Positions 4,671-28,420 of a stretch of 64,000 bases of DNA are shown here, piece after piece (position 1 is the first letter of the stretch; each line of letters opens with the position of its first letter). The notes under the pieces were generated by a model, which saw only the letters and a program-made list of their open reading frames with translations, ran no database searches and was not told the origin of the DNA. Made by a program: the position numbers and the translations under genes. This DNA is from Spirobacillus cienkowskii (GTDB taxonomy: Bacteria > Bdellovibrionota_B > Oligoflexia > Silvanigrellales > Silvanigrellaceae), in assembly GCF_037081835.1 (NCBI RefSeq), contig NZ_CP146516.1, forward strand, positions 2,309,501-2,373,500, in the 5' to 3' direction.

Positions 4671-6007
4671 TTATTAATTAATGGGTTGTGGCCTTTAATT
4701 ATTTTTTTATTGTTAATTATTTTAATTAAAGCACCATAATAATGCACACCCAGTTTATGCTCTTCTAAAGATTTTACAGAACCACCTATAATTAAATCAC
4801 CTTCAGTATTAACCGTTAACTTAGCTTTATTATAACTATTAATAACTCTATTTACAGAATATGGTAAAAAATAAGACCAATTATTCTCTCCATTTAAATT
4901 ATAACTTTTAATAAAAAGTTTATTTAGATCATTCTGTTTATTTAAAGAACCTATCACAAAAATCTGGTCTTCATAAACTTTTAAATCATAAATATTATTA
5001 AATTCATCTTTATTTCCATATATACGAATCCAATCTTTTTTAATTTCTTTAGCGTTAAACTTTAAAATAAAATAATCTTGATAGCCAGATATTACACTGT
5101 ATTTTTTTACTTTAAGAACTTCATTTTCTTGATTAAAACTAAAAATTCCATCCGCCGTAGAAGAAGCTCCACCTCCTAAATAAATATTTTCTTTATCATC
5201 AATATTTAAATCCGCTAAAAATAAGTTATAATTAGATATACTAAGCAATTCTTTAAATGTAAGAACTCCATGTAAATTTACTTTTAAAATAAATAAACAT
5301 TCAGAAGATAAACTAGTTTGCCCTGCTATATAAATATTTTCATCTTTATCCATTTTTGCAGTGATAGTTCTATCAACAGAACCTTTTCCAAAACCAAGAT
5401 GAGTATATTTTTTTTCAAAAAGATTATTACCATCAAAATCAAATTTATATAAAACAACATTAATTTCTTCAGAGACATTAGTTCCTAATGCATAAATATT
5501 ATTATACTTTCCTATTAATATTTTTTGTAAACTCGTCTTATTATCAACATCACCTAATATTTTATCCCACTGTTTTTTTCCTTCGGAATCATATTTTGCA
5601 ATAAAATTTTTCCTATTATTACTTTGTTCAATTATCCCTAAAACATAAATATTTCCGTTATTATCAATGGATAAATTTTGACCTATAACTTTAGTATCGT
5701 TTTTATTATTTAACGGAACTCTCCATTCTTTTTTTCCATTTTTATTACGTAATATAATATATGAATATTGAAGATTTTTTTTACTATCATCAGGTGAGAA
5801 CTTATTCGCATTAAGCAATACAATTGTATTATTATTGCTATCCGATACAATTGCAGCAACTTGAGTTCCGTCTCCAGCTTTTCGAAAATTTTTTACCCAA
5901 GCAATTTTTTCATTATCCTGGGCATTCACTTTTAGAGTCATAATAAGAAACAAGAAACCAATAAAACTAATTTTTTTAAATATTTTCTTTAAAAAAAATT
6001 TATTCAT
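4658..6007 (-). CDS. Secreted SBBP/beta-propeller-like repeat protein
   Basis: 449 residues from the ATG at 6007 (an upstream TTG at 6019 has no better signal). A signal peptide is evident: Lys-rich N-terminus, hydrophobic '[11 protein letters not shown]', then a likely cleavage after 'VNAQ'. The rest is a run of ~45-residue repeats of the form 'D-NGNIYVLG...[13 protein letters not shown]', typical of bacterial SBBP (seven-bladed beta-propeller) repeats. Such proteins are exported and usually of unknown function; no catalytic motif is visible. Strongly AT-rich, with Asn/Lys-rich composition. Convergent with fumC. Confidence 0.65.
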
Positions 6008-18161: not shown

Positions 18162-21100
18162 TTAAATTTCCCGAATACCCAAACCTAAAATAGGATGATA
18201 ATTAAATTTTTTATCTTTCCAATAATATGGCACCCTTATTGCTGCAAGTTTTTTAAGACTATCATTATCGCATGTTTCTTTGGGTAATAATTTTTTAATT
18301 TCTTTTAATTCTGAAATTAAATTATAGTCAATAAAAAAATTTCTTTTACTTTTTAAAACATTGTTATACTCTTTAATACTCATGGCAACAGCAAAATCAT
18401 TGTTATGAGTAGGAACATTTGGCTTAGTTTTTAATAACCATCTATCCCATTTTTTTTCGTTGAAATATACAGGAAAATACTCATCTTCAATTCCAAATTT
18501 ATTTTTTCTAAACCTTGTTTTTAAAAAGAAATGCTGCGTCAAACGATGTTTTTTATTTTTTATAAATTCTTCTAAACTATATTTATTTTTAATATTTTTA
18601 ATCAAATGCTCCCTCAGCTCAATCAGTTCTACTGCAGTTAATGGAGAATCAAGATAATATTTTAATTCTAGCAAACAAAGACTCGAATCAATTTTTTTAG
18701 AAACTTCAGCAAAAATTGCTTTTTCTGCATCTCGAATACGCTTGATTACAACATCCTTTTTTATTTCCAGCTGAATTTCTGCACTTAATAATTGTTCTTC
18801 TACTTTTCTATATACTTCATAATCAATATTATCTTTTTTAGGAAAATCAGCCCTACGCATTGCGCGCCATCCAAAATGCGAAAACACTCCAAATGTTGAA
18901 TCCGTTTCAACACCAGGATATGCCCAACTATTTGGTTTTTCCTGTTTGTTGTGACTATCAAACCATGTTTGTGAAGAAAATCTTAATATTCCAATATTGG
19001 GCCGGTTGGCAAACACTGAGGACGATGCCGTAACACCCTTCCCGAAGCTTGCACAATAGAGCGGGTTGAGCACGGATCAAGAATTGTCCAATCGTAATCA
19101 TGATCACGGCCCGTTTCTTGAATACTTGTTGAAGAAACAAGCATCATCACATTTTTTGGAAAATTATTTTGCTCATACCATTTTAGAAACTCAGGAGAAT
19201 TCAAAAGTATTTTTGGATCGTTGCAATTTTCTGTTCTTTTTAAACCTTTATCTAAAAAGCTTTCGACACGTCTTCTATCCACAAAATTTAAATAACTATG
19301 GTAACAAAATACTGCTATTTTTAAATCGCTTGCTGACTTTTCTTCATCCATTAACCATTTGGCAAAATCACGACAAATATGGGTACGATTCCACCTTACA
19401 AAACCAATTGAAAATCTAAAAGAATTATTATTTACCATATACGAATGTCTCAAATGCATGCGTTCTGCGGCTTGCAACACAATGTTAAAATTTTCTTCTT
19501 CAAAATTTTTTTTATCTTTAACTTCAATAAATTCAGCATAGTGCTTTTCTGGAGATTTTTTTAAATAATTGCAATGATTTAATAAAAATTCATTGTAATA
19601 TTTTTTAAATTCATCATTATTATTTATAGGCATTAATTTTGCAGAACTACAAGAGCTATAATTGCTACCTAAACAAACGATTAAATTTTGCTCATTGGTA
19701 TTTTTTAAATTTCTGTCTTTAACACCATCTAAAAATGCGTCATACAATTTTTGCACAATAACGCTTTGAACACTTGCAGAAGATAACACAACATTTCTTC
19801 CGTAAAACCCCGTTAAGTAAACCAAACGACCAATACTCACCAAATCAGATGCCGCAAAAGAATCTATCTCATCAATTGCTAAATCCGAAGTCATCAAGCG
19901 CAATGCCATAAAGGATTCACTGCCTCGTTTAATTTCTGCGCCCGAAATAAAATGATCTATTGTTGCCACAACAATAGGCGTAGATAAAATCACTTCTTGG
20001 GTTTTATTTAAAAACGGGATGCTTTTATTCTCATTTCTTCCACCAATTACAAAATTAGCCTCTTCGAGTTCTTTTAAAAGCTGAGGTGAATTTGAGGTGC
20101 CATTTTCTGAATCATACAACAAATCAGTATTTTCGGCTTGGGACTCCCAAATTTCTCGGGTTAAACGATCACCCACCACAACAGCAACATCGGATTCATC
20201 ATACAGTTTTTTATATTCACTCCCAGTTTGTAACGTTAACGTTCGCAATCCTAATCCCAAAGAATATCTCAGTTTATGATCTTGCGCTGCGGCAGAACAT
20301 GCTAAAGCAATGGCTCGAGTTTTTCCACTTCCAGTTGAGGAAGTGAGCACACAAAAAACTTGCGCAGAGGCATTTGTTTTTTTTAATTGATCAATTTTTT
20401 GGTAAACTTCATGCTGCCATAAAAATCTTTCATTTTCTGGTTTTTTAGATTTTAATGGCATTGCGGCAGAAAACGCTTCGCTGTTTAAAAAAATGCAGTT
20501 AAAATAAACTTTAGTGTAATGCGCGACTTTATTTAAATGAACTTCTAAAGTGTCTGCATAATATTTTTCGTCACTTTGCAATATTGTATTTGCAAAAATT
20601 GTAGAATTTAATGATAAAGAATCTCCTAAATATTTTTCTTTTTTTTCTGATCCCATGTAGTCAGAAATAATAAGAAGTGGTCTTAAATAATTGGGAACAT
20701 AGGTTTCAATAAAATTTTTATTATTTAAATTGTTTTGCAGATATTTTGCAATAAAATTACATTCTTTTGCAACCAACGCGCACCAAGATTGCGGACTTTC
20801 TGCATTATCCCAAGGTTTTTTACCTTCTTTTAAGGTTAAAAAATTTAAAAATTCATCGAGCAACTTTTTTTCTAAAATTTTTGAGGTATCAACAAACTCT
20901 TCGCGCCAAAAGTTTTTAACTCCCGAGCACACGCGTAAATCTTTTGCTTCTGGTAATTTGTGGTGAGTGAGCACAAGCCATAAAATATATTCAATAACTT
21001 TTGATTGATTAGAATTACTCAATAAAAAGTTATTAAATTGCGGCCAAGGATCACGAATTGCTGTTTTGCAATACTTATTTAAACTACTTTTAATAATATT

Positions 21101-21682
21101 AAGATAATTTTCAGAATTTTCAGAAAAGCATTTGTGCACATTTTCTTCGGTTGATAAATGCTGAAAAATAATATTATCATCCATATTATTTTTAATAATA
21201 CCATAAATCATCAAACACGATACAAGCTCATGGCGCACAACATCTTTTTTAATTTTATTATCGCGCAGCGCGTTATTGAGTTTTGCTTGAAAGCCAACTG
21301 TTGCCTTACCAAGATCGTGAAATAAAGCCGATAATTTTAAAACAGAAAGAAAAAATTGTTCTTCTTCTGATTTTAAATTCATTTCAATTTCTTTCTGCAT
21401 TTTTGTAATTGAATAACTGTATTCACCATTTTCGCTAAAATGAATTTTATTTCCAACATGAAAAAGAAAATTTTTGTCATTATATTTACCTATTTTGTAA
21501 CAGGTAATTGATGTTTTTTTACTTGAATTTTTTATAAGTAACTCGTGAAGTTCTTGATATCCCTCTTCTGATAAGTTACCAATCCAAGTACGCCTGCCAA
21601 TTTGGTTTAAATATTTTGACAAATTTTTTCTTGTCTTGGGTAATGATTTTTTAGTGCATTCGCTCACGCACAGTATTAACAT
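18162..21682 (-). pseudogene. cas3: Type I-F Cas2-3 fusion nuclease-helicase, frameshifted
   Basis: The first frame (18983-21682, 899 codons) has the I-F Cas2 domain (about 1-95), an HD nuclease motif 'LFHDLGKATVGFQ' (about 120), Walker A 'SSTGSGKTRAIA' (about 450), a DExH-like 'AIDEIDSF' (about 600) and motif VI 'QASGRVLRHRP' (about 885). It then runs into a stop 12 codons later. The family's C-terminal region ('RPNIGILRFSSQTWFDSH...') continues in the -1 frame to 18162. The two join best near 18999-19003, where one extra C in GGCCC would restore '...PTGPNIGIL'. Cas3 is recruited by the Csy complex to shred target DNA. ATG with GGGAGA upstream, 18 bp after cas1. A real lesion would leave helicase motifs but lose the C-terminal domain. 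Confidence 0.85.
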
Positions 21683-21700
21683 ATTTTATCTCCCTAAATA

Positions 21701-22648
21701 CTATACCCATTTTTCTGTTACTTTTTTAATTTCTTCCAGCATAATTTTTAAGGCTTTATTTTTTTCAAACCAATTAATGCAATCTGTACGAAATTGACCA
21801 TAAGTTAATTTATTAAGTTCTGCTAAAAATGATAACGGCAATACAGAGGCATCTTTAATAATATCGGCAACATCAAAAACCAAACCACCTCTTCGGGTTT
21901 TGCCGTGGACAACTGACAGAGAATGCGAAATACCTAAAATCCATAATGCAGAATTTGCCAAGCCGTAAGCTAAATAATTACCACTATTTAAAAATTCGTT
22001 AGCAGTCATATTTGTTTTGTTACTTTTATTTTTTTTACTTATGTTTATTATGTTTTTTTTATCTTTTTTAAGAAAACGGGTTCTTTTAAAATCTTTATCC
22101 AAAACATTTTTTGCTAATATTTTAAAAAGCCCTCTTGTTAAGTCTCCTTCGTGACCTAGGAGTTCAAATGTATTTTTTGCATTCTCCATTTTTTGTCTAA
22201 ATTCTTCTATAATGTGACCTGGGTTAATTTCATTTTCAAAAATTTCACTCCAAGATTCTAATACTAACTGACAACGACGATGCTGAAATTCTTTTGCAAC
22301 CTGTAATCTGGCGTCATCGTTGATCCACATTTTAATCCAGCCTTGCAAAAATTCTGGTTTGCGATATTCAGACTGCGACGCTAAATAAACAGGAGTACCA
22401 CCTCCTCCAGTAAATATGACAGAAACAGATTCTCCAGATAATAAATACGCGGCTTTTTGTGAAATTGAAGTACCTGGGCCTAAAACAAGTGCATTTATGT
22501 TTCCATAAGGTAAAGAATAATGTTTTTCGAGCATAATTTTTTCTAACGCATCTGGTTTTCTAGTAAAAGTAACCATATCGTTACGCACCGAAATACGACA
22601 ATGTTCTAAATAAACAATTGCAGCTTTATGTGTGGGTAAAATAGCCAT
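21701..22648 (-). CDS. cas1: Type I-F Cas1 integrase
   Basis: 315 residues, close to the usual I-F Cas1 length. Subtype features: N-terminus 'KAAIVYLEHCRISVRND', 'YGNINALVLGPGTSISQKA', and active-site candidates Glu in 'GHEGDLTRGLFKIL', His in 'LSVVHGKTRRGGLVFDVADI' and the Asp that follows. With Cas2 (fused to Cas3) it inserts new spacers next to the leader. It lies downstream of the array, separated from csy1-4 by the whole array and by a terminator-like last repeat, so it probably needs its own weak promoter or readthrough. Confidence 0.95.
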   Translation of the reverse strand: MAILPTHKAAIVYLEHCRISVRNDMVTFTRKPDALEKIMLEKHYSLPYGNINALVLGPGTSISQKAAYLLSGESVSVIFTGGGGTPVYLASQSEYRKPEFLQGWIKMWINDDARLQVAKEFQHRRCQLVLESWSEIFENEINPGHIIEEFRQKMENAKNTFELLGHEGDLTRGLFKILAKNVLDKDFKRTRFLKKDKKNIINISKKNKSNKTNMTANEFLNSGNYLAYGLANSALWILGISHSLSVVHGKTRRGGLVFDVADIIKDASVLPLSFLAELNKLTYGQFRTDCINWFEKNKALKIMLEEIKKVTEKWV

Positions 22649-22693: not shown

Positions 22694-22719
22694 AAAAATA
22701 AAAACCGCCTATGCGGCGG
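22694..22719 (-). terminator. Degenerate last CRISPR repeat acting as an intrinsic terminator
   Basis: On the minus (crRNA) strand CCGCC-GCATA-GGCGG keeps the loop and stem position of the array repeats, but both sides of one A-U pair changed to G-C. It is followed at once by TTTTTATTTTT instead of the repeat's CTGAGAAA handle. It is offset from the first good repeat by 57 bp, close to the array's 60-bp period. GC stem plus U-tract is the shape of a Rho-independent terminator ending the pre-crRNA before cas1. Confidence 0.65.
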
Positions 22720-22753
22720 GAAACAATACTAGTGAAAATACCTATAATCATAA

Positions 22754-24230
22754 TTTCTCAGCCACCTACACGGTGGTTAATGTTATTCATAGAGACATCT
22801 AACACGTTTTCTGTTTCTCAGCCACCTATGCGGTGGTTAATTATTCTTTATTATTTAGACTACTATATGAAGATTTCTCAGCCACCTATGCGGTGGTTAA
22901 TTGATGTTTGTTTGTGCTTTAGAAAGTTTTGTATTTCTCAGCCACCTATGCGGTGGTTAATGTCGTTTTAAATACTGCATTAATTAAATTTGAGTTTCTC
23001 AGCCACCTATGCGGTGGTTAATAAATGCAGGTATGTCAAAGCAATTGAACCAAATTTCTCAGCCACCTATGCGGTGGTTAATGGCAAATCACCAACACCT
23101 TGTTTTAACCATTGGTTTCTCAGCCACCTATGCGGTGGTTAATCAGCAACTTACCGTGGCGCATCATTTACAAATTTTCTCAGCCACCTATGCGGTGGTT
23201 AATAGCTAGTCTATTTATTTTCCGCTGTAATAAGTTTTCTCAGCCACCTATGCGGTGGTTAATTGTTATATTATTTGTTATGCCTTTGTTTTATTTTTCT
23301 CAGCCACCTATGCGGTGGTTAATATTGCTCAGATGTAACATATACTATACAAAACTTTCTCAGCCACCTATGCGGTGGTTAATTATTGCAAACACCACGA
23401 GCAATTATACGTTTATTTCTCAGCCACCTATGCGGTGGTTAATGTGGTTGTTTTTTGAACTCTATTTGTATTAAATTTTCTCAGCCACCTATGCGGTGGT
23501 TAATAATATCAACGCTGCAACATATCCTCTTTGGAAATTTCTCAGCCACCTATGCGGTGGTTAATTTCTTTATGCTTTTGGAGAAGAAAATTTTGATATT
23601 TCTCAGCCACCTATGCGGTGGTTAATTTATAAAACATTATACACAAGTGGAGTATTAGGTTTCTCAGCCACCTATGCGGTGGTTAATGAAATTATCCGCT
23701 CGGCATTATTGACGGGTTATTTTCTCAGCCACCTATGCGGTGGTTAATGTGATGTTTTCTTTTCATCAGGCTCTGGATCTTTTCTCAGCCACCTATGCGG
23801 TGGTTAATGTTTAATCAACTATTATTTATCGCAACAGTTGTTTCTCAGCCACCTATGCGGTGGTTAATGCGTAAGCAATGAGGCTGCCATAAATGCACCA
23901 TTTCTCAGCCACCTATGCGGTGGTTAATCGCTATTCTTTTTCTTTGTATTGACTTAAAAATTTTCTCAGCCACCTATGCGGTGGTTAATACCCCTTTACA
24001 AACGGAGTTTAAATAAGGGGTTTTCTCAGCCACCTATGCGGTGGTTAATAAAGACGATGTGGAGCAGGCTCTTTCTGAATTTTTCTCAGCCACCTATGCG
24101 GTGGTTAATTTATAAAACATTATACACAAGTGGAGTATTAGGTTTCTCAGCCACCTATGCGGTGGTTAATATATCATGTGTCAGACAAAATTTTAGCCAC
24201 AATTTCTCAGCCACCTATGCGGTGGTTAAT
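22754..24230 (-). CRISPR. Type I-F CRISPR array, 25 repeats and 24 spacers
   Basis: 28-bp repeats spaced by 32-33-bp spacers. On the minus strand each repeat begins ATTAACCACC, has loop GCATA, closes with GGTGG and ends CTGAGAAA: a 5-bp hairpin plus 8-nt handle, the I-F hallmark recognised by Cas6f/Csy4. All repeats are identical except the one at 22754-22781, which has two changes in the loop. That variant and the terminator-like remnant beyond it mark the old, leader-distal end, so transcription runs leftward from the csy4 side. One 33-nt spacer occurs twice (23627-23659 and 24110-24142). Open frames through the array encode only translated repeats and are not genes. Confidence 0.98.
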
Positions 24231-24373
24231 GCTCTAATTTTTGTAACAACATACTGGTAACAATGCAATACATTATAATTTAAACCACTGCACCATTGCT
24301 TTAGGCAATTTTAAAAAAGCATAGTATTTATAAGGTTTTCAAATAACAGTCTATACACAATGGGTGCATAGAA
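24231..24373 (-). promoter_or_regulatory. CRISPR leader with -10-like box
   Basis: The AT-rich 143-bp stretch between csy4 and the newest repeat is the leader. On the minus strand a TATAAT lies at 24277-24272; transcription would start ~35 nt before the first repeat. No convincing -35 box is visible. Confidence 0.5.
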
Positions 24374-24973
24374 TTAAAAATGCGGAACACCCACCCCTTG
24401 AGGAGCAAGTCCATAGCTTGAAAATTTAATATCCCTCTGCAAGTCAAATGGAGGTTCCACCTGTTCACGCGCTATAAATAACACAAATCCTTTTTGCGCA
24501 GTAGAACTGCTATCAACAGGTATTCCATGAGCAATTGACTGAAGACGTGTTTTTATTGACTCTCCTAACTGAGGTTTATTAAATAGATGCTCTTTATTTT
24601 TTCGTGCGTAACGTCTTTTAATGCGTTCAAAAAAAGCAGGGGTTTGTTTTTCTATGCCACGATTTCTAAAAAAACGGTAATATGTTGTTGTGCTTTCTGG
24701 TACCTTTTTAATACGACTCACATCTAGCAAACCACGCTCTGCATTTTGATTTAACCAAGCCGAACGTGAAATAAACTGCAACTGATCTTCACTTCCTAAA
24801 AAACGAATAACTCCACCAATAGATTGATCGCTCCATTCTGGAAACGAAACAGCAATACAGCCTTCTGCTTTACCAACAATAGTATGAAAATGCTGATAAA
24901 TTTTTTTAATATCCATTGCTGTAAACTTAGAAAGATCTGTTAATTTAATGTCTAAATAATAATTTAAATTCAT
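24374..24973 (-). CDS. cas6f: Type I-F Cas6f (Csy4) crRNA endoribonuclease
   Basis: 199 residues from ATG 24973 (AAGGA upstream), normal for Csy4. The N-terminal 'MNLNYYLDIKL' strand is followed by His28/His30 in 'YQHFHTIVG', matching the position of the catalytic His of this family, and the C-terminus has Arg-rich 'RIKRRYARKNKEHL', suited to gripping the repeat hairpin. Cuts pre-crRNA at the base of each hairpin and stays bound to the 3' stem-loop. Last of the csy1-csy2-csy3-csy4 genes and directly upstream of the array leader. Confidence 0.92.
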   Translation of the reverse strand: MNLNYYLDIKLTDLSKFTAMDIKKIYQHFHTIVGKAEGCIAVSFPEWSDQSIGGVIRFLGSEDQLQFISRSAWLNQNAERGLLDVSRIKKVPESTTTYYRFFRNRGIEKQTPAFFERIKRRYARKNKEHLFNKPQLGESIKTRLQSIAHGIPVDSSSTAQKGFVLFIAREQVEPPFDLQRDIKFSSYGLAPQGVGVPHF

Positions 24974-25004
24974 CACTATTTTTCCTTACAATTAAGCATT
25001 CGCA

Positions 25005-26132
25005 TCAAGATCCAATTTTTTTATTATCTTTCTTTATTTGCTTTTTAGATGCCTTTTCTGCTTCTTTCTTTTTGCGCTTTTCAAAACTTTCTTGGCTAGA
25101 GTAACTAAACACACCGCCGCGAACTAAACACCCAACAACAAAATGTACATTTCCAGGTATTTCTTCTACATTTTTTGATGCTTTAAGTTCTTCGGTTAAA
25201 GAAATAATATTTTCTACTAAAGAATAAAAATCATTTTTACTTTCTTTAGAAACACGCATGGCTTTTTGCATTTTTGAATCAACACCATAAGGCTCAATGG
25301 GTAAGGCGGGCACAAAATTTGCATTGGAATACCAAGTATCAATAGTGCGCAAGGCATTGCCTATTTTTTGCGGGTGCAAGTAGGCATGATTATCTACTGT
25401 ACCTAAGCTTGTTTTTGCAAGAACTCTGCCAATATCATCTTTCATTTTATCTTTTTCTATAAATTCTTGACTTGGAAAAATTTCTTGCCCCAAACCAATT
25501 TTACCGCTTGCCGTAATTTCTAATCGTAATAAATGACTTTTTCCAGAAAGTGCGGCAGCAAACTGATCGATTAACATTTGTAAAAATTTTTTTTGCTGCT
25601 CAGAATAAGGCTGCGCAACAATAAATTGACATTCATTATTAAATTCTTCTAAAAAATTGGTACGATTCATCACTTTAATAGTAATTGTTAAGTTATCGGC
25701 GTCTCTGTTGCGCCATAACCACGAACCATTTAAAATTTGGTTTACATATTTTTGTGCTAAAATTGCGTAACCATTTTTATCTGTATAAATTTTTAAAAAT
25801 TGGGCAACATATTCTATAAATTGCTCGTCATTACAGGCATCGGGTTTAATGCTCTTACCTAATACATTTAAAGAAAACACACACTCAAAGGTATCGGAGT
25901 TTGCAGGCAAGTGCGCCACCTCTATGCGTTGCAAATTCGGTTTATCTGGGTTTTCATCATAAAAACTTTGCCCTGCAGAATGGCTTGATTGCGTACCACG
26001 GATGCTTGTTTGCACTACAGTAACAGGTGTTTTTATTTTTTTCCCCTCATGATTAACAATTGCGTAAAATAAACCCTTGCCTGTTTGTATAGAACGCGAA
26101 TAAGAAAGTAAGCTTGGTTGCAATAATTGCAT
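25005..26132 (-). CDS. cas7f: Type I-F Cas7f (Csy3) backbone subunit
   Basis: 375 residues; about six copies per complex coat the spacer part of crRNA, each covering 6 nt. Family features include the start 'PSLLSYSRSIQTGKGLFYA', 'TSIRGTQS', 'NPNLQRIEVAHLP' and 'LRTIDTWY' near the middle, ending in a Lys-rich tail. GGAGA site 7 bp before ATG. Immediately follows csy2 (2-bp gap), and is followed by csy4 after 31 bp. Confidence 0.93.
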   Translation of the reverse strand: MQLLQPSLLSYSRSIQTGKGLFYAIVNHEGKKIKTPVTVVQTSIRGTQSSHSAGQSFYDENPDKPNLQRIEVAHLPANSDTFECVFSLNVLGKSIKPDACNDEQFIEYVAQFLKIYTDKNGYAILAQKYVNQILNGSWLWRNRDADNLTITIKVMNRTNFLEEFNNECQFIVAQPYSEQQKKFLQMLIDQFAAALSGKSHLLRLEITASGKIGLGQEIFPSQEFIEKDKMKDDIGRVLAKTSLGTVDNHAYLHPQKIGNALRTIDTWYSNANFVPALPIEPYGVDSKMQKAMRVSKESKNDFYSLVENIISLTEELKASKNVEEIPGNVHFVVGCLVRGGVFSYSSQESFEKRKKKEAEKASKKQIKKDNKKIGS

Positions 26133-26134
26133 AG

Positions 26135-26983
26135 TTAAATCTCCAAAATAGTATTTGATTTTGCAATAAACATTTTTGAATTAGAAAAATAAGACCAAAA
26201 TATTTTTTTATGATTTTCTTGTTTTTCGTGATTACGCAGCGATTTTACATTGCGCAATCTGCCAGCTCCCAATAACGGTTCAGCATAAATGTGCTGCACA
26301 GCTCGAGCCCCTTCTCGTTGCTGCGGCTGCTCGTCTAAAGAAACAAAACCAACAGCTAACGGAACAGCATAAAAATCTACATTTTTTTCATCACGTTTTC
26401 CTCCTTCACACATACGCAGCAATGCTTCCAATGCATCGACTTCGTGTTCATTTTTTATTTTTATGAGCTCATCACTTGCACATTCTAATACAAACGCATT
26501 ATATGGAATAGAATTTAAATGAGTAAAGAAACTTTCATCAAATTTTATTTTATCAACACTTTCAATAACACCACTGCAGCAAAAGTTAGAAAAAAAGATA
26601 TTTTTAAAATCTTCGCTTTGTAAAAAATCAATATTTTCATCTAAATTTTCATCTAATAAATCAATATTAAAAACAAAATCTGCAACAAAATTTAAAATAC
26701 GTGTATCTACAGTTGCTGCAATAGCAGAGTTGCCGCTTGCTCTTTGATTTTCATGCCCAGGGGTAAAGCGAGGGTGTGTGATAGAACACTCTAACTCTCG
26801 TAAAAATACCGACACCGCATTAAATTTAATATTTTTATTATGCTCAAAATTGCACTTGCGTTGTGTTGCATGCATCATTCCAAGTATTCCCGTAACAGAT
26901 GGAAAACCCTCCACATAAATATTCGCCATGGCTTGCGCACCCGTTACCACCACATTATGCACACCTAAAAATCCATTTTTCAT
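26135..26983 (-). CDS. cas5f: Type I-F Cas5f (Csy2) subunit
   Basis: 282 residues from ATG 26983, whose ATGA overlaps the csy1 stop and which has AAAGG upstream; the longer TTG-started frame is less likely. Sequence starts 'MKNGFLGVHNVVVTGAQAMANIYVEGFPSVTGILGMMHA', the usual Csy2 beginning with its first RAMP-type strand. With Cas8f it caps the 5' handle of the crRNA and helps read the PAM. Translationally coupled within csy1-4. Confidence 0.9.
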   Translation of the reverse strand: MKNGFLGVHNVVVTGAQAMANIYVEGFPSVTGILGMMHATQRKCNFEHNKNIKFNAVSVFLRELECSITHPRFTPGHENQRASGNSAIAATVDTRILNFVADFVFNIDLLDENLDENIDFLQSEDFKNIFFSNFCCSGVIESVDKIKFDESFFTHLNSIPYNAFVLECASDELIKIKNEHEVDALEALLRMCEGGKRDEKNVDFYAVPLAVGFVSLDEQPQQREGARAVQHIYAEPLLGAGRLRNVKSLRNHEKQENHKKIFWSYFSNSKMFIAKSNTILEI

Positions 26984-28212
26984 AATAAACAACCTTTCAA
27001 ATATTTTGAAAACAAATAAATTAAATGCAATGATATACCATTTGTAATAACTTCTTCATTTTTATTTGCATATTTTTGTAATTTATCAGCACAATATCTT
27101 GAAAATAATTCTATATTTTTTTCGTTTACTTCATGATATAAATTTTGTTCTCGGTAATCAAAATTTTTTAAAATATAGTTTGATGTACTTGCTTTTTTAA
27201 ACCGTAAATCATCAATAATATCAAATACATTTTCAAAAGATTTCTCAATTAATATTTGAAGATTTTTTTCTAGTTTTTGTTTATTTTTATAAGTATAATG
27301 AAATCTTCCTTCTTCTTCATTATCAATTTTTTCTAATTCTATTAAATAATTACTAAAATTAAAAAATTTATACACTTTATAATCAAATGCTGTTTCGCAT
27401 TGAGAGATTCTACTCTTTGGAAAAGTAAATTTGATGAGCTTAAATTTTCCGGCAATTGAAGCGCTCAAATCTCCCGCATTCACAGGATTTGAACCACCCA
27501 CCGAAATAGTTTCAAACTGGCGGAATAAGGTATCGTGAGATGCATATCTTCTTTCCCACAATTCACGTAACATCCCATTATGAGCAATAGGACTAATTGC
27601 AAGATAATTGCCATTGTCAAGCGGCCATAAAATTTGCGGATCGGTGGCAAAAGTTGAATTATGAAAAAATGCTTCATCAATTTTTTCTTTTAAATAATAT
27701 AAGTTTTTTTCTAAAATACCCAATTCAAAAAGTACCTTAATAACATCCGATTGCAACCAATTGTCAGAATGCAGCTCTTCGGCAATAGATGTTAACTTAT
27801 TATTGTATTTAAATTGAGTTACAAAAAAATACTTTTTTTTGTTATCTGCTGCATTTCCACCCCAAAACAAGTTTTTTAAAAAATTTGTTGTTAAAGAATA
27901 CGCAAACCGAGGATCTTTATACTGCGGTTCTTTTAAAAAAGGGTTAGGCACTGGAGTGTTGGCATCTGGAATTTTTGCATTATATTTTTGCATTCCTTTT
28001 ATTGCATGCACAATATCTGCAAGAAATTTTTGGTCTTGCAAAAGAAGCTTGGCATTGTTTTCTAAATTAATATCTTTGCTCAATTCCTTTTCATAAGAAT
28101 TAATAATTTCAATTATAAATTTTTTTAACTCAGAGCGCCCAAATACATTTGCTGCAGGATTTTTAGGCTGCATTGGGTCACTAGAAACTTCTTTTTTTTC
28201 GTTTTGAATCAC
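26980..28212 (-). CDS. cas8f: Type I-F Cas8f (Csy1) large subunit
   Basis: 410 residues, slightly short for Csy1 (~430). Recognisable parts: the helical N-terminus 'SELKKFIIEIINSYEKE', 'DPRFAYSLTTNFL', 'LWPLDNGNYLAISPI' and 'SVGGSNPVNAGDLSASIAGK', the last being a conserved Csy1 signature. Cas8f recognises the CC PAM and holds the crRNA handle. Start is GTG (28212) with GGGAG six bases upstream. First gene of the csy operon; its promoter region carries the CreR-like target. Confidence 0.92.
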   Translation of the reverse strand: MIQNEKKEVSSDPMQPKNPAANVFGRSELKKFIIEIINSYEKELSKDINLENNAKLLLQDQKFLADIVHAIKGMQKYNAKIPDANTPVPNPFLKEPQYKDPRFAYSLTTNFLKNLFWGGNAADNKKKYFFVTQFKYNNKLTSIAEELHSDNWLQSDVIKVLFELGILEKNLYYLKEKIDEAFFHNSTFATDPQILWPLDNGNYLAISPIAHNGMLRELWERRYASHDTLFRQFETISVGGSNPVNAGDLSASIAGKFKLIKFTFPKSRISQCETAFDYKVYKFFNFSNYLIELEKIDNEEEGRFHYTYKNKQKLEKNLQILIEKSFENVFDIIDDLRFKKASTSNYILKNFDYREQNLYHEVNEKNIELFSRYCADKLQKYANKNEEVITNGISLHLIYLFSKYLKGCLL

Positions 28213-28260: not shown

Positions 28261-28279
28261 CCTTTATACTTTAACTTTT
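28261..28279 (-). promoter_or_regulatory. Putative CreR target overlapping the csy1 -10 box
   Basis: The plus strand reads CC (28261-28262) followed by TTTATACTTTAACTTTT (28263-28279). The same 17 nt open the guide of the mini-CRISPR at 28298-28379, and CC is the type I-F PAM in the correct place. On the minus strand the site includes TATAAA (28268-28263), a plausible -10 box of csy1 with start near 28256. Csy complex bound here would block the promoter. Confidence 0.7.
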
Positions 28280-28297
28280 ATTAAATTTAAAATAATA

Positions 28298-28379
28298 CAA
28301 ATACTCCGTTTTCCCAACGGTTAATATAAAAATAAAAAGTTAAAGTATAAATTTCTCAACCGAAAAGAATCGGACAAAT
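28298..28379 (-). ncRNA. creR: CreR-like Cas-regulating mini-CRISPR RNA
   Basis: Leftward unit of a 28-nt repeat-like element (28352-28379), a 26-nt guide (28326-28351) and a second 28-nt repeat-like element (28298-28325). The first keeps a hairpin CCGA/TCGG and an 8-nt 3' handle TTGAGAAA (array: CTGAGAAA). The second keeps ATTAACC at its 5' end and a 5-bp, 5-nt-loop hairpin CCGTT-GGGAA-AACGG, a changed but still paired stem. These are the parts that stay in a mature I-F crRNA. The guide starts with 17 nt matching the csy1 promoter next to a CC PAM. Its length, 26, is one 6-nt Cas7 step below the array's 32. Role inferred: autorepression of the csy operon by partial target binding. Confidence 0.75.
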
Positions 28380-28391
28380 GCAATTCTGATG

Positions 28392-28420
28392 TAGCTAGCA
28401 CACAAAAGAACCCTAGTCAA
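28392..28420 (-). promoter_or_regulatory. Putative promoter of the CreR-like RNA
   Basis: On the minus strand TTGACT (28420-28415), a 17-bp spacer and an extended -10 TGC-TAGCTA (hexamer 28397-28392) lie just before the first repeat-like element. Transcription would begin about 5 nt ahead of it. Confidence 0.5.

Follow-up and report, generated by a model that had tools for sequence, protein, structure and literature searches.

A likely creR-like, cas-regulating mini-CRISPR upstream of csy1 in the type I-F CRISPR-Cas locus of Spirobacillus cienkowskii

Small crRNA-like RNAs that regulate cas genes, termed CreR, are encoded by mini-CRISPRs first reported by Liu et al. in 2023 (Cell Host Microbe 31:1481, cited here through the reviews PMC12737573 and PMC13131331). 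One of these reviews assigns CreR to type I and type V-A systems generally (PMC12737573), and the other, from 2026, lists it for types I-B, I-E and V-A only (PMC13131331). The element described here resembles CreR in that a mini-CRISPR close to the cas genes would produce a crRNA-like RNA, here only predicted, with a partial match to a cas promoter and without a toxin. It differs in its type I-F setting, where the hairpins are of the Csy4 type and the PAM is CC, and in that its function is inferred. A type I-F CreR has not been described in the literature that we searched; we cannot exclude an I-F example in the supplement of the original CreR paper.

Three other known systems invite comparison. 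The I-F CreTA modules of Acinetobacter (Wang et al. 2023, PMC10097628), in which LoGeW2-3 was named as a CreTA locus and the family member WCHA45 was tested experimentally, also have a short guide enclosed, upstream of csy1, by two degenerate I-F repeats, with a nearby target behind CC and a matching handle layout, and they are found by the same scan that we use below. However, the CreTA target governs a divergent mini-ORF RNA toxin, while our locus has no such ORF and its target lies on the presumed csy1 promoter, in the orientation opposite to the guide. CrePA, in which a KilA-N toxin is repressed by CreA (PMC12737573), shares the guide-target design, but no protein toxin gene lies between the guide and csy1 in our locus. 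Finally, Racrs, the RNA anti-CRISPRs of phages (PMC10651486), are likewise ectopic RNAs resembling CRISPR repeats; they are, however, encoded by viral genomes, consist of a single repeat and inhibit CRISPR-Cas, whereas our element lies within a cas locus and has two repeats as well as a guide that matches a target.

The DNA analysed here (the window, 64 kb) comes from Spirobacillus cienkowskii, a water-flea parasite with a published complete genome of 2.81 Mb (PMC12321486). It carries a minus-strand type I-F system in the order csy1-csy2-csy3-csy4, array, cas1 and cas2-3 (Table 1), and membership of this type is met by csy1-4, cas1, the cas2-3 fusion and the I-F repeat. The cas2-3 gene itself (18162-21682) is frameshifted in the window strain, and an assembly error is not excluded; a contig of a conspecific MAG (C62) encodes an intact cas2-3 of 1177 codons, 90% identical, adjoining a diverged second cas6f (42%). 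Because of the frameshift, interference is possibly impaired in the window strain and the system may be decaying. Binding and repression by the Csy complex would not require Cas2/3. Two further features of the array were seen. Its end repeat forms a Cas6f-type hairpin (CCGCC/GGCGG, 22705-22724) that runs into TTTTT, and therefore may also serve as a terminator. In addition, the spacer CCTAATACTCCACTTGTGTATAATGTTTTATAA is present twice, at repeats 2 and 10, and is retained in the conspecific locus L002.

Table 1. Features of the Spirobacillus cienkowskii type I-F locus (window positions) and of related elements at other type I-F loci (positions within each locus).
Feature	Position	Strand	Remarks
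csy1 (cas8f)	26980..28212	-	GTG start behind AAGGGAG; PADLOC Cas8f, E 7e-23; position
csy2 (cas5f), csy3 (cas7f), csy4 (cas6f)	24374..26992	-	
Main I-F array	22747..24260	-	25 repeats ATTAACCACCGCATAGGTGGCTGAGAAA
Terminal array unit	22700..22781	-	29-nt spacer between a variant repeat and a degenerate end repeat, GTTTCCCGCCGCATAGGCGG, which runs into TTTTT
cas1 (22648-21701) and cas2-3	18162..22648	-	cas2-3 split by frameshift near 18996
psiR1 (degenerate repeat)	28352..28373	-	CCGA-TTCTTT-TCGG-TTGAGAAA; stem CCGA/TCGG
psiS guide, 26 nt	28326..28351	-	TTTATACTTTAACTTTTTATTTTTAT; nt 1-17 equal the target, 17/17
psiR2, 20-nt 3' handle	28306..28325	-	ATTAACCGTTGGGAAAACGG; ATTAA-CCGTT-GGGAA-AACGG; from sequence and folding
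Target	28261..28279	+	CC PAM 28261-28262 and 17-nt protospacer TTTATACTTTAACTTTT 28263-28279; exact guide nt 1-17
Presumed csy1 promoter	28263..28291	-	TTTAAA 28291-28286, 17 nt, TATAAA 28268-28263; read from sequence, inference only
Presumed creR promoter	28392..28420	-	TTGACT 28420-28415, 17 nt, TG-n-TAGCTA 28397-28392; read from sequence
creR-like element, Vibrio megaplasmids	L017 8371-8447; L018 8408-8484		15-nt guide; target matched except positions 6 and 12
creR-like element, Acinetobacter soli plasmid	L037 1193-1361		Directed at start of cas3f-csy operon
creR-like element, Psychrobacter plasmid	L027 4280-4485		20-nt guide; target 75-95 nt 5' of csy1
Mini-CRISPR, Vitreoscilla plasmid pVF1	L036 4190-4350		26-nt guide, nearby CC target
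CrePA-like module, Acinetobacter ANC 7974	L030 4180-4775		Guide matches promoter of KilAC gene upstream of csy1

The mini-CRISPR lies in the 243 bp that separate an upstream transporter gene from csy1, where the minus strand (28373-28306) carries a 26-nt guide between two degenerate type I-F repeats. The first repeat, psiR1, ends in an 8-nt crRNA 5' handle (28359-28352) identical at 7 of 8 positions to the handle of the array repeat, CTGAGAAA, and folds into a stem of 4 bp with a 6-nt loop, compared with 5/5 in the array repeat. The second, psiR2, has exactly the geometry of the array repeat (a 5-bp stem and a 5-nt loop), with three of its five pairs altered on both sides and pairing kept. This hairpin geometry (5/5 in psiR2, 4/6 in psiR1) suits Csy4; processing and effector loading are inferred from it. 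The guide matches its target at 17 of 17 positions, with mismatches beyond, and the target lies directly behind CC and covers the TATAAA box 51 nt 5' of the csy1 start. The initial annotation had reported this arrangement, and on recheck its two degenerate repeats, 26-nt guide, handle, hairpin, coordinates and sequences all held, as did the recurrence of 17 guide nucleotides behind CC over TATAAA, the preserved handle of the first repeat and the re-paired 5-bp hairpin of the second. Its claim of a plausible creR promoter held only in part: the -35 is good and an extended -10 TG is present, but the -10 (TAGCTA) is weak, with 2/6 to the consensus, and a promoter scanner gave no call.

Could such a guide-target pair have arisen by chance? 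We defined as handle-like any octamer outside the array with at most 2 mismatches to the array handle, and scored the best CC-flanked match of the next 17 nt within 600 bp over 15 positions, ignoring positions 6 and 12; bases 6 and 12 of the crRNA are unpaired in type I structures. The window contains 628 such sites, with scores from 6 to 12 except at the mini-CRISPR, which reached 15/15 and was the sole site above 12; none of 20,000 Markov-simulated intergenic regions of the same composition reached a score of 13. By itself, the 17-bp inverted repeat is not unique, as perfect inverted repeats of that length occur elsewhere in the window (I6 and I7). It is therefore the register that counts, one arm starting immediately after the handle and the other immediately after CC. 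Genome-wide, the pattern TGAGAAA-N18-40-ATTAAC occurs outside the array only a handful of times, at the same level as a control pattern. We found no second exact copy of the target in the genome, and near-matches to it were at control level; a second regulated promoter elsewhere in the genome is not claimed.

Using the Spirobacillus csy1 as a query led to I-F loci on Vibrio plasmids, where a second element lies upstream of csy1. The scan was then run on 25 I-F loci, which came from relatives as well as from plasmids and phages, with the repeat of each locus and alongside decoys with shuffled handles. At a score of at least 14/15, 8 matches were obtained among 2,782 handle candidates versus none among 14,668 decoy candidates. 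They comprise the window, Psychrobacter L027, Vibrio L017 and L018, Acinetobacter L020 and L026, Vitreoscilla L036 and Acinetobacter soli L037, and all 8 lie immediately upstream of csy1 or of a cas3-csy operon. Acinetobacter LoGeW2-3 (L020), of which L026 is a relative, served as the positive control and was recovered. The Vibrio element was already known when the scan was designed, so that only the matches outside the Vibrio pair count as independent discoveries. Mismatches in the other elements fall mostly at positions 6 and 12, which the score excludes. The two Vibrio elements share an 86-nt identical run that spans handle, guide, psiR2 and target, starting in psiR1 and stopping exactly at the last matched target base, compared with 85% identity outside it.

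These elements do not all appear to be of one kind. In L017, L018, L027, L037 and the window, no toxin ORF with a Shine-Dalgarno sequence (SD) was seen between the target and the first cas gene, and we infer from their sequences that they fit CreR. L020 and L026 are CreTA or CreTA-like. The mini-CRISPR of L036 lies between XRE/VapC genes and csy1, and whether it is CreR or CreTA is undecided. L030, with a lower score (13/15) and a KilAC gene, fits CrePA by inference from its sequence. Two other sites scoring 13, in L025 and at a second place in L037, were dropped for lying away from a cas promoter or being a plain inverted repeat. No matches were obtained when viral contigs were searched with three Csy3 queries, and the other I-F locus of the same genus (G006) has a 40-bp cas3-csy1 gap without the element.

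Taken together, the sequence anatomy, its statistical singularity and its recurrence in other I-F loci are shown, and we consider it likely that the element is a creR-like, cas-regulating mini-CRISPR of type I-F; transcription, processing, binding, repression and sensing are all inferred, without RNA or expression data. It has two degenerate cognate repeats around a guide beside cas genes, partial complementarity of this guide to a cas promoter at the right PAM (activity of the promoter being inferred), and no coupled toxin gene, with an ORF-less RNA toxin not excluded. In the model that we propose, minus-strand transcription through 28398-28300 would produce a short RNA, which Cas6f (Csy4) would cut behind both hairpins to release a 54-nt crRNA-like RNA composed of UUGAGAAA, the 26-nt guide and AUUAACCGUUGGGAAAACGG (8+26+20). 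Loaded with Csy1-3, this RNA would form a Csy complex that recognises the CC at 28261-28262, forms 17 base pairs with the csy1 promoter and covers its -10 box. Cas2/3 recruitment in type I interference is not expected with so short a match; the pairing would be insufficient for a full R-loop or for attack by Cas2/3, so that the bound complex would act as a repressor and the csy operon would be held down by its own product. Repression would be relieved when array crRNAs compete or when anti-CRISPRs remove free Csy complex. Against this model stand the weak creR -10, the psiR1 stem one pair short, the absence of the element from a conspecific strain and the frameshifted cas2-3.

The autorepression of the csy operon claimed in the initial annotation is thus supported by layout and recurrence, its function remaining inferred in the absence of transcript or repression data, and the ~54-nt RNA that it predicted agrees in length with the anatomy. 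The repeat-guide-repeat plan, for which it suggested a search of relatives, recurs in front of the cas operons of unrelated I-F loci with a frequency not reached by the decoys. The idea of 6-nt steps behind its remark that a 26-nt guide is one Cas7 step short of 32 is no more than suggestive: guide lengths are 26, 15, 20, 31, 20, 26, 20 and ~20 nt (the guide of L037 being measured to the repeat start GTTGTCC because its psiR2 hairpin is extended), and the steps fit 26, 20, 20 and 26 but not 15 and 31. For the covariance check that it suggested, no orthologous element was available, as the single close relative, which is conspecific, has the whole block replaced.

Of the alternative explanations, CreTA or CrePA survives best, and we still regard it as very unlikely. 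Here the guide would repress a toxin under the same promoter and make the Csy complex addictive. In its favour, CreTA modules are the nearest tested I-F elements that occupy this position between csy1 and the DNA upstream of it (PMC10097628), and L030 carries a KilAC gene with a matching guide. However, no SD-bearing ORF was found between the target and csy1 in the window, where the next SD is that of csy1, which starts only 51 nt away. Neither a creT-type mini-ORF with an SD was found under the target on either strand, nor a KilA-N toxin, the feature of CrePA, the next gene being csy1. Since there is no toxin ORF, CreR, that is, autorepression guided by the Csy complex, is preferred to CreTA, although we cannot rule out an RNA toxin that lacks an ORF.

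A second possibility, also highly improbable in our view, is a cis-acting RNA hairpin or attenuator, in which guide and target are merely the arms of a 17-bp inverted repeat in a read-through leader of csy1. The read-through RNA does fold with these arms paired (-31.5 kcal/mol, z -2.9), and the window has the other perfect inverted repeats of such length mentioned above. However, this leaves unexplained why one arm lies exactly after a crRNA 5' handle and before a Cas6f-type hairpin, and the other behind CC; moreover, guide and target have the same orientation in related loci, and therefore no hairpin is possible there. Lastly, a dead relic, in which a self-targeting spacer and two repeats were captured by chance and are decaying without function, would account for the degenerate repeats, the block missing from the conspecific strain and the frameshifted cas2-3, but is very hard to reconcile with the retention of the mature-crRNA parts while the cut-off parts drifted, with a psiR2 stem that still pairs after changes to both bases of three pairs, and with a seed match of 17/17.

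Returning to the creR-like reading, the conspecific strain provides a natural comparison. Its locus (L002/L007, from a MAG) is ~99% identical to the window except in two patches. In the first, unrelated DNA of 257 bp stands in for the creR/csy1-promoter block (window ~28440-28200), with TTGACT also present at the corresponding place; searches for relatives of this replacement block in other genomes gave only low-scoring AT-rich matches. The absence of the mini-CRISPR from this strain means that it is dispensable or recent, and places its own covariation beyond test. The second patch covers the 3' half of csy1 and most of csy2 (window 26200-27490), with 75-92% identity. In known Csy complexes, the csy1/csy2 subunits bind the PAM and the 5' handle. 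This patch is possibly a second exchanged or fast-evolving stretch, perhaps reflecting escape from anti-CRISPRs.

The replaced promoter block has a match of its own. The last array spacer of L002 matches it behind CC at 15 of 17 positions (1-6, 8-11 and 13-17); this 29-nt terminal spacer is unchanged in both strains and has no target in the window. A random spacer would score equally with a frequency of ~5e-6 and shuffles of the terminal spacer with 2.5e-5, or <1e-3 for the 26 spacers tested. When 904 array spacers from the 25 loci were compared with their own whole loci, the terminal spacer of L002 was the only one to score 14, and three scored 13. One of these three is in Acinetobacter indicus (L023), where the last array spacer, bounded by a degenerate end repeat, again has its match behind CC, in the region of the cas3f start and just 5' of the start of the cas operon. 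The other two (L021 and L052), inside or beside csy3, were taken as chance. The two terminal spacers measure 29 and 27 nt, compared with the usual 32-33, with degenerate repeats at their ends. Separately, L002 contains at 4768-4872 a micro-ORF of 34 aa with a good SD (MKKELIWVYIIFFIFIIYIFFVKIDKFVFAINIK), hydrophobic and with a single membrane span, which sits between csy1 and the promoter matched by the terminal spacer and is a possible toxin or leader peptide.

It is tempting to speculate that a mini-CRISPR and the array tail may be able to exchange a regulatory guide, which we consider possible. A bolder reading is that type I-F systems are widely autorepressing, their guide having two interchangeable homes, a mini-CRISPR beside csy1 or a shortened unit at the array end. 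This hypothesis rests on only two cases, L002 and A. indicus, and for now the balance tips slightly against it. Were it true, spacers at the trailer end would be retained for regulation and not for memory.

If the creR-like reading is correct, type I-F, on which much anti-CRISPR research relies, would join the types with RNA-guided self-repression, and a simple scan could pick out such elements with few false matches. The comparison of strains also offers two testable hypotheses: the oldest array spacer can act as a regulator built into the array, and the control cassette 5' of csy1 is exchanged as a unit. Moreover, Cas levels would be tied to crRNA supply and to anti-CRISPR attack across many species.
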